Source: Crossiella sp. S99.2 (GTDB taxonomy: Bacteria; Actinomycetota; Actinomycetes; Mycobacteriales; Pseudonocardiaceae). Taken from it: a DNA stretch of 64,000 bases. The stretch spans positions 1,116,001-1,180,000 of the forward strand of contig NZ_JALMDK010000001.1 in assembly GCF_023094165.1 (NCBI RefSeq), written 5' to 3'. The notes under the pieces are model-generated. The model did not search any database. It saw nothing but the letters and a program-made list of their open reading frames with translations, and was not told the origin of the DNA. Shown here piece by piece: positions 19,863 to 28,076 of this stretch (within the stretch, counting starts at the first letter, position 1; each line of letters opens with the position of its first letter). The position numbers and the translations under genes were made by a program.

Positions 19863-20909
19863 TCAGCGGTCTCGCTGGGTGATCAAGCGGGCGAGCATGG
19901 TGAGCTGACCGCCCGCCCTGGACCGCGGTGAGCTGGCCTGCAAGTGCGCCAGCCCCTGGGCGAGCAGGTCGTCCGCCTTCTGCTGCGCCCAGTCCCGCCC
20001 GCCCGCCGCCTCCACCAGCGCGGCCGCGTGGGCCAGTTCGGCGGTGTCCAGCGGATCGGTGCGCTGGTACAGCGCGGCCAGTTCGCGGGCCGCCGGGGTG
20101 CCGGAGGTCAGCGCGAAGACCACCGGCAGCGACTTCTTGCGGTTCTGCAGGTCCGAGTAGATCGACTTCCCGGTGGCCGCCGGATCGCCCCAGATGCCGA
20201 GCAGGTCGTCCACCAGCTGGAAGGCCAGCCCGACGTCCTCGCCGAACTTGGCCAGGTGCGTCACCTGCTCCGCGCTGCCGCCGCCGTACATGCCACCCAG
20301 CGCGCAGGCCACCCTGGGCAGGGCCGCGGTCTTGCCGATGGCCATCGCCACGCACTCGTCCACGTCGACGTCGGTGCGGTCCTCGAAGGCCAGGTCGGCG
20401 AACTGCCCGTCGAGCAGGTCGAGCACTGCGGCGTTGAGCAGCTTGGTGGCGTGCTTGGCATCGGGCAGCTTGCTGGTGGCCACCACTTCCATGGCCACCG
20501 ACAGCAACGCGTCCCCGGCCAGGATCGCCGCGTTCAGCCCGAACACGCTCCACGCGGTGGCCCGGTGCCGCCGGGTGGTGTCCCCGTCCATCACATCGTC
20601 GTGCAGTAAGGAGAAGTTGTGCACCAGCTCCACCGCGACCGCCGCAGGGACGGAGGCGGCCGGGATGCCGCCCACCGCCTCCGCGGTCAGCAGCACCAGG
20701 GCCGGGCGGATCACCTTGCCGCTGCTGCCCTCGCTCGGCCTGCCCTGCTCGTCCCACCAGCCGAAGTGGTAGCCGGCGATGCGGCGCATGGCCTGCGGCA
20801 AACCCTCCACCGCGTCCCGCATCGCCGGCTCGATCATGCCCCGGCTCCAGGCCAGCACCTCGCCAATGGTGTCGGCGCCGAGTACCGGGGCTGTTTCCAC
20901 ACTCGCCAT
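19863..20909 (-). CDS. Polyprenyl diphosphate synthase of the encapsulin locus
   Basis: About 348 residues. A trans-isoprenyl diphosphate synthase that condenses IPP with an allylic diphosphate. The first aspartate-rich motif is LLHDDVMDGD (Asp104, 105, 108) and the second is LVDDLLGIWGD (Asp234, 235). In family 2B encapsulin operons such synthases are recognised companions or cargo. It could supply GPP to the methyltransferase and FPP to the other cyclases; product length is not predicted. There is one base between its ATG and the shell stop, so it is translated with the second shell. It is the last gene of the operon. Confidence 0.93.
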   Translation of the reverse strand: MASVETAPVLGADTIGEVLAWSRGMIEPAMRDAVEGLPQAMRRIAGYHFGWWDEQGRPSEGSSGKVIRPALVLLTAEAVGGIPAASVPAAVAVELVHNFSLLHDDVMDGDTTRRHRATAWSVFGLNAAILAGDALLSVAMEVVATSKLPDAKHATKLLNAAVLDLLDGQFADLAFEDRTDVDVDECVAMAIGKTAALPRVACALGGMYGGGSAEQVTHLAKFGEDVGLAFQLVDDLLGIWGDPAATGKSIYSDLQNRKKSLPVVFALTSGTPAARELAALYQRTDPLDTAELAHAAALVEAAGGRDWAQQKADDLLAQGLAHLQASSPRSRAGGQLTMLARLITQRDR

Positions 20910-20910
20910 A

Positions 20911-25550: not shown

Positions 25551-26638
25551 CCCGCACCGCCCACGGAGATCGAGCCGGTGCCGATCCCGCTGAGGAACTT
25601 GCCGCCCCGCCGCTGACCCGGCATCGGCGCCGCGTGCTCGTTCATGTACCGGTTGGAGGTCAGGTGCCACTGGTGCCCGCCGGACTGCCAGTCCTGCAGG
25701 CCCTTGACGTAGCGGGCCACCGCGATCTGCTCGTCGGCCAGCAGCCGGTGCTCGGCGAACAGCGGCGGCAGTTCGGTGGCCACGGTGTTCTCGAACTGCT
25801 TGAGCCGGGAGGTGATGACGTCGTTGAGGGTGTCCGCGGCCTGCTGGGTGTCGCAGCCCAGGAAGGTCTCCATGACCAGCACGCCGTTGTTCACCTCGCC
25901 CTCCTGCTGGGTTTCCCGTTGGTAGCTGAAGATGTCGTTACGCAGGTGCACCCCGTCGGCGAAGGTGTCCCGGAGGACCCGGAGCGGGCGGCTGTGCGCC
26001 ACCCGTTCCGGGACCTCGGTGCCTTCGGTGTACTCGACCAGTCCGACCGACCACGGCGCGCCGCCGACCTTGCGGCGCATGCCGATGTAGTCGATCGGGT
26101 TGGGGATGCGGCCGTTGGCGATGTTGTCCAGCTCCCAGCCGCAGTCCACCAACAGGTTCTCCGTGCTCACCGCGAACCGCTTGCGCCAGTCCATCGACAT
26201 CCGCGGCGCCGTGCGGGCCCAGAGGTCGGCCAGTCCGCGCTCCACCGGGTTCGTCCACTGTGGAGGGTCGGACAGATCGAGCGGCATGAAGGCCATCAGC
26301 CGGTCCAGATAGGCTTTGGCCCCCTGCTGGTCCTTGGTCCGCTTGAACAACGCCAGGAAATGGTCGTCGAAGTAGAAGACCCAGGTGTACCAGTCGGTCA
26401 CGATGTCGAGCCGGTCGCCGGGCGCATCGGGATGCGCCCAGGCGCACAGCCCGGCCATGTCCATGCCGTCGAAGTAGGCCTCGCTCCAGATCTCCGGTCC
26501 GCCGTCCTTCGTCGGCCCGATCATCTCCATCTCGACGGCCCACTGCTTGTCGTGCGCCCTCGCCGATTCCAGATGCGGGTTCAACCGTGCCGGGTGCGGC
26601 ACGTAGAAGTCAGGCAGTTCGAAGGGCTGGTCAGCCAT
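25547..26638 (-). CDS. Terpene cyclase related to the N-terminal half of geosmin synthase
   Basis: About 363 residues. The sequence closely follows the germacradienol-forming first domain of geosmin synthase, starting with PFELPDFYVPHPARLNPHLE. The metal motif is DDHFLA at 91-96, where the family usually has DDHFLE; the NSE motif NDIFSYQRE at 234-242 is intact. After the cyclase fold (HQWHLTSNRYMNEH) comes a 25-residue Gly/Ser tail containing GKFLSGIGTGSI, where geosmin synthases have the inter-domain linker. It overlaps the first shell gene by 8 bases and the next cyclase by ATGA. It probably cyclises FPP to a germacradienol-type product. Confidence 0.88.
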   Translation of the reverse strand: MADQPFELPDFYVPHPARLNPHLESARAHDKQWAVEMEMIGPTKDGGPEIWSEAYFDGMDMAGLCAWAHPDAPGDRLDIVTDWYTWVFYFDDHFLALFKRTKDQQGAKAYLDRLMAFMPLDLSDPPQWTNPVERGLADLWARTAPRMSMDWRKRFAVSTENLLVDCGWELDNIANGRIPNPIDYIGMRRKVGGAPWSVGLVEYTEGTEVPERVAHSRPLRVLRDTFADGVHLRNDIFSYQRETQQEGEVNNGVLVMETFLGCDTQQAADTLNDVITSRLKQFENTVATELPPLFAEHRLLADEQIAVARYVKGLQDWQSGGHQWHLTSNRYMNEHAAPMPGQRRGGKFLSGIGTGSISVGGAG

Positions 26639-28076
26639 CGTGGCGGCCGAGTTCCACGTTCTCCAGGATGCCCAGGGCGTCCGGCACCATCACCGCGGCG
26701 GAGTAGTAGGCGCTGACCAGGTAGGAGATGATCGCCTTCTCGCTGATGCCCATGAACCGCACCGACAGGCCCGGCTGGTACTCATCCGGCAGACCGGTCT
26801 GGTGCAGGCCGACCACGCCCTGGTTGTGCTCACCGACCCGCAGCAACATCATCGAGCTGGTGTTGTTCTGGGTGACCGGGATCTTGTTGCAGGGCAGGAT
26901 CGGCACCCCGCGCCAGGACGGCACCTTGTTGCCGTTCATGTCGATCGCGGTCGGGTAGATGCCGCGGCTGCTGCACTCCCGGCCGAAGGCGGCGATCGCC
27001 TTGGGGTGGGCCAGGATGTACCCGGGCTCCTTCCACACCGTGGCCAGCAGGTCGTCCATGTCGTCCGGGGTGGGCGGGCCGGAGCGGGTGTGGATGCGCT
27101 GCTTGAGATCGGCGTTGTGCAGCAGGCCGAAGTCCCGGTTGTTGACCAGCTCGTGCTCCTGGCGCTCGCGCAGCGCCTCGATGGTCAGCCGCAGCTGCTG
27201 GTCGAGCTGGTTCATCGGCTGGTTGTAGAGGTCGGCGACCCGGCTGTGCACCCGCAGCACGGTCTGCGCCACGCTCAGCTCGTACTCGCGCGGGGCCAGC
27301 TCGTAGTCCACGAAGGTGCCGGGCAGGTCGAACTCGCCCTCATGCCCGGAGGCCACCTCGATCTCGGCCTCGCCGTGCGGGTTGCCCTTGCGTGCCTGGC
27401 CGGCCACGAAGGCCGCGATGTGCTCCTGCAGCGCGGGGGACTGCCCGACCACCTCGTCGTAGGCGCGCTGGTCCAGGGTCAGCACGGTCACCGGGGTGAC
27501 CGCCTTGACGGTGAAGTCCCAGATGCTGCTCGGATCGGTCAGCGACTCGTCGCCGAAGTGGTCGCCGTTGGCCAGTGTGCCCAGCACGGTCTGGTCGCCG
27601 AACTCGCCGAGGCCGAGCTTGTTGACCTTGCCGTGCGCGATCAGGAACGCCTCGTTCGACTCGTTGCCGAACTCCACGATCACATCACCGGGCTGGTACT
27701 CCCGCTGCTGGAACCGGTTGGCCAGCGCGACCAGCACGTCCTCGTCGTCGAAGCCGCGCAGGATCGGCAGCTCGCACAGCTCCGGCGGCACCACCCGGAT
27801 GCTGCCGTTGGAGGTGAAGGTGACCCGGCCGTCGCCGACGGTGTAGCTCAACCGCCGGTTGACCCGGAACGCGCCACCCTTGGCCTCCACCCAGGGCAGC
27901 ACTTTCAGCAGCCACCTGGAGGAGATCGCCTGCATCTGCGGGACGGACTTGGTTGTCGTCGCCAGGTTCCGCGCCGCCGCCGTGCCAAGGCTGAGCGGGG
28001 CATGCCCGTTGCCGTTGCCGTTGCTGTCGGTCCGGACGTCGGACTCCAACGATTCAGTCACCGCGTACACCACCAA
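26631..28076 (-). CDS. Family 2B encapsulin shell protein, copy A
   Basis: About 481 residues, first gene of the operon. Same order as copy B: disordered N-terminus with SLGTAAARNLATTTKS, a cyclic-nucleotide-binding-like domain near 100-220 (IAHGKVNKLG, GDHFGDESL), and an HK97-type shell domain (YELAPREYELSVAQTVLR, NQPMNQLDQQLRL, PKAIAAFGREC, SWRGVPILPCNKIP). Conservation with copy B is strong in the shell domain and weak in the nucleotide-binding-like domain. The start is uncertain: TTG at 28076 opens the frame; GTG codons at 28073 and 28070 are alternatives. Two shell genes in one operon suggest a mixed shell or two compartments. Confidence 0.93.
   Translation of the reverse strand: MVVYAVTESLESDVRTDSNGNGNGHAPLSLGTAAARNLATTTKSVPQMQAISSRWLLKVLPWVEAKGGAFRVNRRLSYTVGDGRVTFTSNGSIRVVPPELCELPILRGFDDEDVLVALANRFQQREYQPGDVIVEFGNESNEAFLIAHGKVNKLGLGEFGDQTVLGTLANGDHFGDESLTDPSSIWDFTVKAVTPVTVLTLDQRAYDEVVGQSPALQEHIAAFVAGQARKGNPHGEAEIEVASGHEGEFDLPGTFVDYELAPREYELSVAQTVLRVHSRVADLYNQPMNQLDQQLRLTIEALRERQEHELVNNRDFGLLHNADLKQRIHTRSGPPTPDDMDDLLATVWKEPGYILAHPKAIAAFGRECSSRGIYPTAIDMNGNKVPSWRGVPILPCNKIPVTQNNTSSMMLLRVGEHNQGVVGLHQTGLPDEYQPGLSVRFMGISEKAIISYLVSAYYSAAVMVPDALGILENVELGRHDG

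Follow-up and report, generated by a model that had tools for sequence, protein, structure and literature searches.

A predicted two-shell Family 2B encapsulin terpene operon of Crossiella with a GPPMT-MIBS cassette

The encapsulin Sg Enc/EshA of S. griseus is reported to package 2-methylisoborneol synthase (2-MIBS). Terpene operons with Family 2B encapsulin shells were surveyed in 2021, when 165 were reported to encode both a terpene cyclase (TC) and a polyprenyl diphosphate synthase (PT), and double shells were frequent (PMC8346489). According to that survey, 2-MIBS-like cyclases carry GPTGLGT within an N-terminus that is disordered, whereas geosmin synthase-like (GS-like) cyclases have two domains and the motif GPTGLGTSAAR. 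Dutcher, Andreas, and Giessen (2025) described TC/PT two-shell operons in which the TCs lie between Enc1 and Enc2 and the PT directly after Enc2, gave TVWK (Enc1) and RRRK (Enc2) as diagnostic motif 1 of two-component Family 2B shells, and proposed multi-cargo loading as a reason for two-shell encapsulins (PMC12407261); in a myxobacterial preprint, every geosmin cluster is noted to include encapsulins (PMC12224551). Here we examine an operon in Crossiella sp. S99.2, encoded in a 64,000-nucleotide stretch (the window; G000:C11:1116001-1180000). The assembly totals 10.68 Mb over 43 contigs, with a completeness of 98.11 and a contamination of 5.28. To judge from its genes, the layout is the known two-shell TC/PT one, and the novelty is a cassette for a C11 terpene, encoding geranyl diphosphate 2-C-methyltransferase (GPPMT) and a 2-MIBS-like cyclase (MIBS), between the second cyclase gene and Enc2.

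Gene content and shell proteins of the operon

Seven minus-strand open reading frames (ORFs), running from 28076 to 19863, follow one another in the order Enc1-TC1-TC2-GPPMT-MIBS-Enc2-PT, with intergenic gaps of -8 bases (Enc1-TC1), -4 (TC1-TC2, an ATGA overlap), 45 (TC2-GPPMT), 7 (GPPMT-MIBS), 40 (MIBS-Enc2), and 1 (Enc2-PT). Enc1 and Enc2 start with TTG and the other five genes with ATG, the start of TC2 being set at the ATG at 25550 and not at the upstream GTG of the mechanical ORF. An earlier note, made from the letters of the window, had delimited this block at 19863..28076 and put its gaps between -8 and +45 bases; both the coordinates and the gaps were confirmed. The identical seven genes stand in identical order in four of five Crossiella genomes (the window's included), which argues that the block did not arise by chance. 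Gene content and order, the diagnostic motif of the shells, the tag motif of MIBS, and the presence of the cassette in four of the five genomes of the genus can be read directly from sequence. Beyond these, we consider it probable that this is a Family 2B two-shell terpene operon joined by a GPPMT-MIBS cassette, in which Enc1 and Enc2 likely form one mixed shell that takes up MIBS via the motif GPSGLGTSAAR.

Both shell genes encode Family 2B encapsulins, as the earlier note had held. Enc1 (26631..28076, minus strand, 481 aa) and Enc2 (20911..22335, minus strand, 474 aa) reached 768 and 756 bits against NF041163 (encap_f2b, cut-off 400), and each combines PF19307, the SrpI-like HK97 domain, with PF00027, an inserted cNMP-binding-like domain. 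When aligned with the published motifs, diagnostic motif 1 was exact in both proteins, being TVWK in Enc1, as in Sl-Enc1, and RRRK in Enc2, as in Sl-Enc2. The two genes lie within 10 kb of each other, with TC genes between them and PT directly after Enc2, as in the described two-component layout. Enc1 and Enc2 differ clearly from each other and fall in separate clades, and the 2021 survey allowed that double-shell operons might form separate shells (PMC8346489); both points would suit an arrangement of two shells, each with its own cargo set, that keeps the C11 and sesquiterpene branches apart. However, the S. lydicus pair co-assembles, its Enc1 alone forms no shells (PMC12407261), and the window pair has the same diagnostic motif 1 residues as that pair. 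We regard separate shells as unlikely.

The remaining ORFs of the C11 branch and the prenyl supply were also assigned as the earlier note had proposed. PT (19863..20909, minus strand, 348 aa) matched PF00348 with 198 bits and passed NF041169 (f2_encap_cargo4), the model of encapsulin-associated polyprenyl transferases, with 480 bits (cut-off 450); its family match begins at residue 17, and it lacks the disordered N-domain of 50-100 residues described for encapsulin-associated PTs (PMC8346489). GPPMT (23541..24413, minus strand, 290 aa) exceeded the cut-off of the equivalog NF041943 (532 against 400 bits), while MIBS (22376..23533, minus strand, 385 aa) exceeded that of NF041167, a model of encapsulin cargo terpene cyclases (469 against 400 bits). 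By comparison of predicted structures, the nearest solved folds of MIBS belong to the 2-MIB synthase of S. coelicolor, with 4la6 as the best entry.

With two Family 2B shells, TCs between them, PT after Enc2, and the TVWK/RRRK pair, the operon resembles the two-component TC/PT operons (PMC12407261), but Crossiella adds GPPMT and MIBS and thereby has three cyclases of two chemical kinds; no mixture of both kinds is described in the main-text parts of that paper, its supplement aside. It likewise shares GPPMT, MIBS, a GPTGLGT-type tag, and adjoining 2B shells with the 2-MIB encapsulin operons treated by Andreas and Giessen in 2021 (PMC8346489), which differ in having no geosmin-type cyclase (0/36 GPPMT stretches; see below). 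The interpretation in the earlier note is supported in part; the TC/PT two-shell operon type is already in print (PMC12407261), and the C11 cassette within it is unusual.

Predicted cargo tags on the operon enzymes

A predicted cargo tag, GPSGLGTSAAR, spans MIBS residues 17-27 (23453..23485, minus strand). Against a matrix built from 72 distinct tags, from which the window and the Crossiella operon copies were left out, it scored 44.4, a value that 0/1000 shuffles reached, and only MIBS among the operon enzymes carries a canonical tag. The other scores were -11.2 (TC1), -10.5 (TC2), -5.6 (GPPMT), -12.8 (PT), 3.0 (Enc1), and -0.9 (Enc2), and elsewhere in the window, 103 six-frame ORFs not belonging to the operon reached at most 7.0; this value, from a NACHT protein (2/1000 shuffles), and that of Enc1 (5/1000 shuffles) were stray. 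The tag core (P18, G20, L21, G22, T23) is invariant in 22 aligned sequences, comprising the window's and 21 of 120 listed relatives, and the tag falls within a poorly modelled N-terminal region (predicted local distance difference test, pLDDT, under 50 for residues 1-23 and 34-55). With a GPTGLGT-type motif before one cyclase domain, MIBS has the build of a 2-MIBS-like Family 2 cargo.

The tag matrix found no canonical tag in TC1 or TC2, whose scores were reached by 225/1000 and 266/1000 shuffles, and none on PT (718/1000) or GPPMT (29/1000). Both TC1 and TC2 are single-domain proteins and do not show the GS-like cargo pattern, in which GPTGLGTSAAR lies both between two cyclase domains and at the C-terminus. 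One alternative holds that only MIBS is shell cargo, TC1, TC2, GPPMT, and PT being cytosolic and clustered for co-regulation only. The shuffle-level scores of TC1, TC2, and PT, the value of GPPMT slightly above that level, and a PT without the long disordered N-domain all accord with it. Yet a Crossiella genome without the cassette, G016, keeps both shells and TC1-TC2 with no MIBS in the operon, and other cargo may exist there, unless the tagged MIBS that G016 encodes elsewhere could load in trans. In addition, the counterparts of TC1 and TC2 in the relatives G012, G019, and G051 carry recognizable tags (scores 14.5 to 36.6), and TC2 has a poorly modelled head (pLDDT under 50 for residues 1-42) whose motif GPGMGLTR is kept in 5/5 Crossiella genomes. 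The C-terminal tail of TC1, SG[IV]GT[GA]S, is conserved in the same five. We infer that the TC1 tail SG[IV]GT and the TC2 head GPGMGLTR are diverged tags, and we hold MIBS as the sole cargo to be possible but doubtful. Co-packaging of all cyclases in one shell is possible on this sequence evidence.

Several observations weigh against uptake of MIBS, and of TC1 and TC2, by a mixed shell of this operon. Because the TC1 and TC2 scores are at shuffle level, their loading rests on relatives and on termini that are conserved but different. A TC-FAD fusion beside the shells at the host's second encapsulin terpene locus (L017) has no tag (-7.7), hence a cyclase may be linked to shells and yet be untagged. 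Conversely, the host geosmin synthase (L018) and the MIBS of G016 (L088) are tagged although the stretches examined around them contain no shell, so that a tag alone is no proof of packaging in this operon's shell. Finally, MIBS is only 31-35% identical, by fold alignment, to solved 2-MIB-synthase-type structures, so its C11 product may differ from 2-MIB; 2-methylenebornane synthases are close relatives (PMC5908152).

The second encapsulin terpene locus of the assembly, L017 (G000:C8:142000-161900), extends over 6659-19678 and encodes three Family 2B shells. Its cyclases comprise one fused to a polyprenyl synthase and tagged with GPTGLGT at the C-terminus, an untagged one fused to an FAD-dependent, cholesterol-oxidase-like domain, and a tagged single cyclase, and a PT follows the third shell. 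Cyclases with GPxGLGTSAA-type tags were also seen in L018 (3838-6219) and L019 (about 4780-5790), with no shell in either 10 kb stretch.

The N-terminal arm of the shell proteins (for example at 28076-27950 of the window, minus strand) has a motif, SLGTAAAR, that resembles the cargo tag GLGTSAAR. LGT[SA]AAR occurred in 20/65 shells, 29/66 cyclase ORFs, and 0/1833 other six-frame ORFs. In a plain count that treated related loci as separate and took in only loci with both a shell and a tag, SLG shells paired with SAAR-type tags (19, 4, 2, 10; Fisher p 0.0003). On the tree, from which one shell without PQM was dropped, co-variation of shell arm and tag was unsupported: supported branches gave 4 independent pairs, all branches gave 10, and the median p of the sign test was 1. 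The resemblance is kept as a lead only.

TC1, TC2, and the geosmin pathway

TC1 (25547..26638, minus strand, 363 aa) is a class I terpene cyclase homologous to the geosmin synthase N-domain, with 467 and 462 bits against 5dw7 and 5dz2, and TC2 (24459..25550, minus strand) is a second class I cyclase (Terpene_syn_C_2, 163 bits). Both are geosmin-type by homology, as the earlier note described them, yet NF041168, the GS-like cargo model of 735 positions with a cut-off of 1200 bits, identifies neither as a geosmin synthase: the best stretches cover only its first half, positions 1-341 in TC1 (589 bits) and 5-328 in TC2 (356 bits). In a tree of 50 cyclase domains, built from a chosen subset of loci and the window with two short TC domains of L065 left out, TC1 fell inside the geosmin N-domain clade. 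TC2 formed a Crossiella clade of its own outside both geosmin domain clades, and the 13-row C-domain clade (100/99) excluded it. The metal motif DDxxP...G was present in 13/13 geosmin C-domains and in 0/5 Crossiella TC2 proteins, all five of which have DDF[FIM]DDRFKR (DDFFDDRFKR in the window). The predicted TC2 model has a complete class I fold closest to 5dz2, the geosmin synthase N-domain, at 40% identity in the fold alignment. Every named relative of TC2 at 63% identity or above comes from Crossiella, and outside the genus identity was at most 44% among the matches listed from 150 family genomes; the searches for relatives of TC2 and MIBS scored only candidates sharing most words, and the length rule for TC2 excludes full-length two-domain synthases. 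In TC1, residues 91-96 read DDHFLA in all 5 Crossiella genomes and in the G012 homologue, while the majority of the geosmin N-domains compared read DDHFLE or DDHFVE there.

A complete geosmin synthase of 793 residues is encoded elsewhere in the assembly (contig C33, L018:3838-6219), and its 83% identity to that of Crossiella sp. SN42 (L066) makes it very likely the host's own. TC1, in the N-domain clade, and TC2, a homologue, are like germacradienol/geosmin synthase in descent but unlike it in being two separate single-domain genes with no C-domain metal motif and with non-canonical tags. Since TC2 lacks the C-domain motif and a separate full synthase is present, a geosmin pathway is not indicated for the operon, and the C12 route that the earlier note placed here is not supported.

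The possibility that TC1 and TC2 are the N and C domains of a split geosmin synthase, jointly making geosmin or a relative, was weighed on the same evidence. The genes are ATGA-overlapping neighbors in N-then-C order, G012 has a fused two-domain protein in the same operon place with a second domain 42% identical to TC2, and a constrained tree joining TC2 to the C-domains was not rejected by the approximately unbiased (AU) test (p 0.256). Against it stand DDF[FIM]DDRFKR in 5/5 TC2 proteins in place of the DDxxP...G of 13/13 C-domains, the best tree, which sets TC2 outside the C-domain clade (100/99), and a C-domain function already supplied by the geosmin synthase elsewhere in the assembly. We rejected the split synthase as the principal explanation for want of the C-domain motif and judge it quite improbable, while the AU test leaves a C-domain origin of TC2 possible.

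The earlier note had gone further and proposed a single compartment for prenyl transfer, methylation, and cyclisation in both the 2-MIB and geosmin pathways. All the genes do stand in one tight block. Untagged GPPMT and PT, the latter also without the long N-domain, weaken the prenyl-transfer and methylation steps, and TC2 without the geosmin C-domain signature and the separate complete geosmin synthase count against the geosmin part. As a whole, such a compartment seems very unlikely.

Distribution, neighboring DNA, and proposed working

GPPMT was sought in 397 genomes of the order (E 1e-90 or better), giving 37 places in 34 genomes, 31 of them over the family cut-off and 6 under it. The 36 places other than the window's were examined, in most cases with flanks of about 9.5 kb, four being ended by a contig end (L106, L115, L122, L123). 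A shell lay near 20 of the 36 (19 full-length matches and 1 partial), and a geosmin-type cyclase near none of them within the stretches examined; the weak generic TC1 matches at L122 and L127 (76 and 59 bits; 26% and 21% identity) were not counted as geosmin-type. A sample of 396 genomes of the phylum held GPPMT in 6 others, one of which, L132 in G567 (another family, same phylum), is a near case with one shell. Its locus (8262-19901, ~12 kb) comprises a two-domain geosmin-type synthase that runs off the examined stretch, one shell, PT, DXP synthase, plus-strand ORFs, and GPPMT-MIBS. The association of the C11 branch with a geosmin-type cyclase hence recurs, but not as one two-shell operon.

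Approached from the cyclases, searching with TC2 gave 48 named loci with identities of no more than 41%. None of them had GPPMT or MIBS in the stretches examined, and 6 had a shell; 8 of these 48 loci end at contig ends. Geosmin-type TC domains between two shells were found, from lists read by eye, at no fewer than 12 loci, at least, in 10 of 145 other sampled family genomes. In other genera of the family the operon core occurs with other cyclase states, namely a fused TC-TC (G012), a TC with a TC-TC fusion (G019), and two single TCs (G051). Within these samples, both shells and both cyclase types were found together only in Crossiella (0/36 and 0/48, with the one-shell near case among 6). The joining of a C11 (2-methyl-GPP) branch, geosmin-N-domain-type cyclases, and two shells in one tight block, to which the earlier note had drawn attention, is thus supported.

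Among Crossiella, the cassette lies between TC2 and Enc2 in four of the five genomes (the window's, G055, G086, and G108). In G016 the operon reads Enc1-TC1-TC2-Enc2-PT, and a GPPMT-MIBS pair is present elsewhere, with a tagged MIBS and no shell in the stretch examined (L088). For each shell, G016 and the four cassette-bearing genomes form one clade (100/100). Given this shared shell ancestry and the absence of the cassette from the G016 operon, one branch of the genus likely gained the cassette between TC2 and Enc2, or else G016 lost it. The orphan G016 copy was rejected as the direct source of the cassette, as the G016 MIBS groups with another genus (99/96).

A 22-base block upstream of Enc1, CCGGTCAGGTGACTTCACGCGG (28242..28263, minus strand), is identical in 5/5 Crossiella operons, with no exact copy in the rest of the 133 loci examined, and is a candidate control region of the operon; a scan for a sigma-70 promoter upstream of the operon found none. 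Downstream, an NNH1-NACHT-LRR protein (16595-19771, minus strand) starts 91 bases after PT. The NACHT gene follows PT in 5/5 Crossiella, with 56-93% identity to the window's copy in the other four, and was rejected as a part of the system because conservation extends to other neighbors and a single terminator-like site separates PT from NACHT (0.2 expected).

On the favored reading of a mixed shell that takes up MIBS, the seven genes would be co-transcribed and Enc1 and Enc2 would co-assemble into one shell, as published work has shown for the pair from S. lydicus. PT would supply prenyl diphosphates (farnesyl diphosphate, FPP, and geranyl diphosphate, GPP) in the cytosol, where untagged GPPMT would make 2-methyl-GPP. 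This substrate would then enter the shell, where MIBS, held by its tag, would cyclise it to give 2-MIB or a closely related C11 compound. From homology, TC1 is predicted to act on FPP to give a germacradienol-type product, and TC2 is predicted to be a further class I cyclase. The two are probably older cargo, held by diverged tags or another contact, which is the least certain step, and geosmin itself would come from the separate full-length enzyme.

A more far-reaching version is that a mixed Enc1/Enc2 shell with resident TC1 and TC2 gained the C11 pair through a ready-tagged cassette, with C11 and sesquiterpene cyclases sharing the lumen; we offer this tentatively and think it rather doubtful. 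In its boldest form, the tag would copy the shell N-terminal arm (SLGTAAAR against GLGTSAAR) and fill an arm site left empty by Enc2. The genus holds a natural matched pair, in that four Crossiella have the cassette in the operon and G016 has closely related shells and no cassette there. This pair makes testable the loading of several cyclases into one mixed shell, the sufficiency of the GPxGLGT tag, and the gain of a pathway by a shell.

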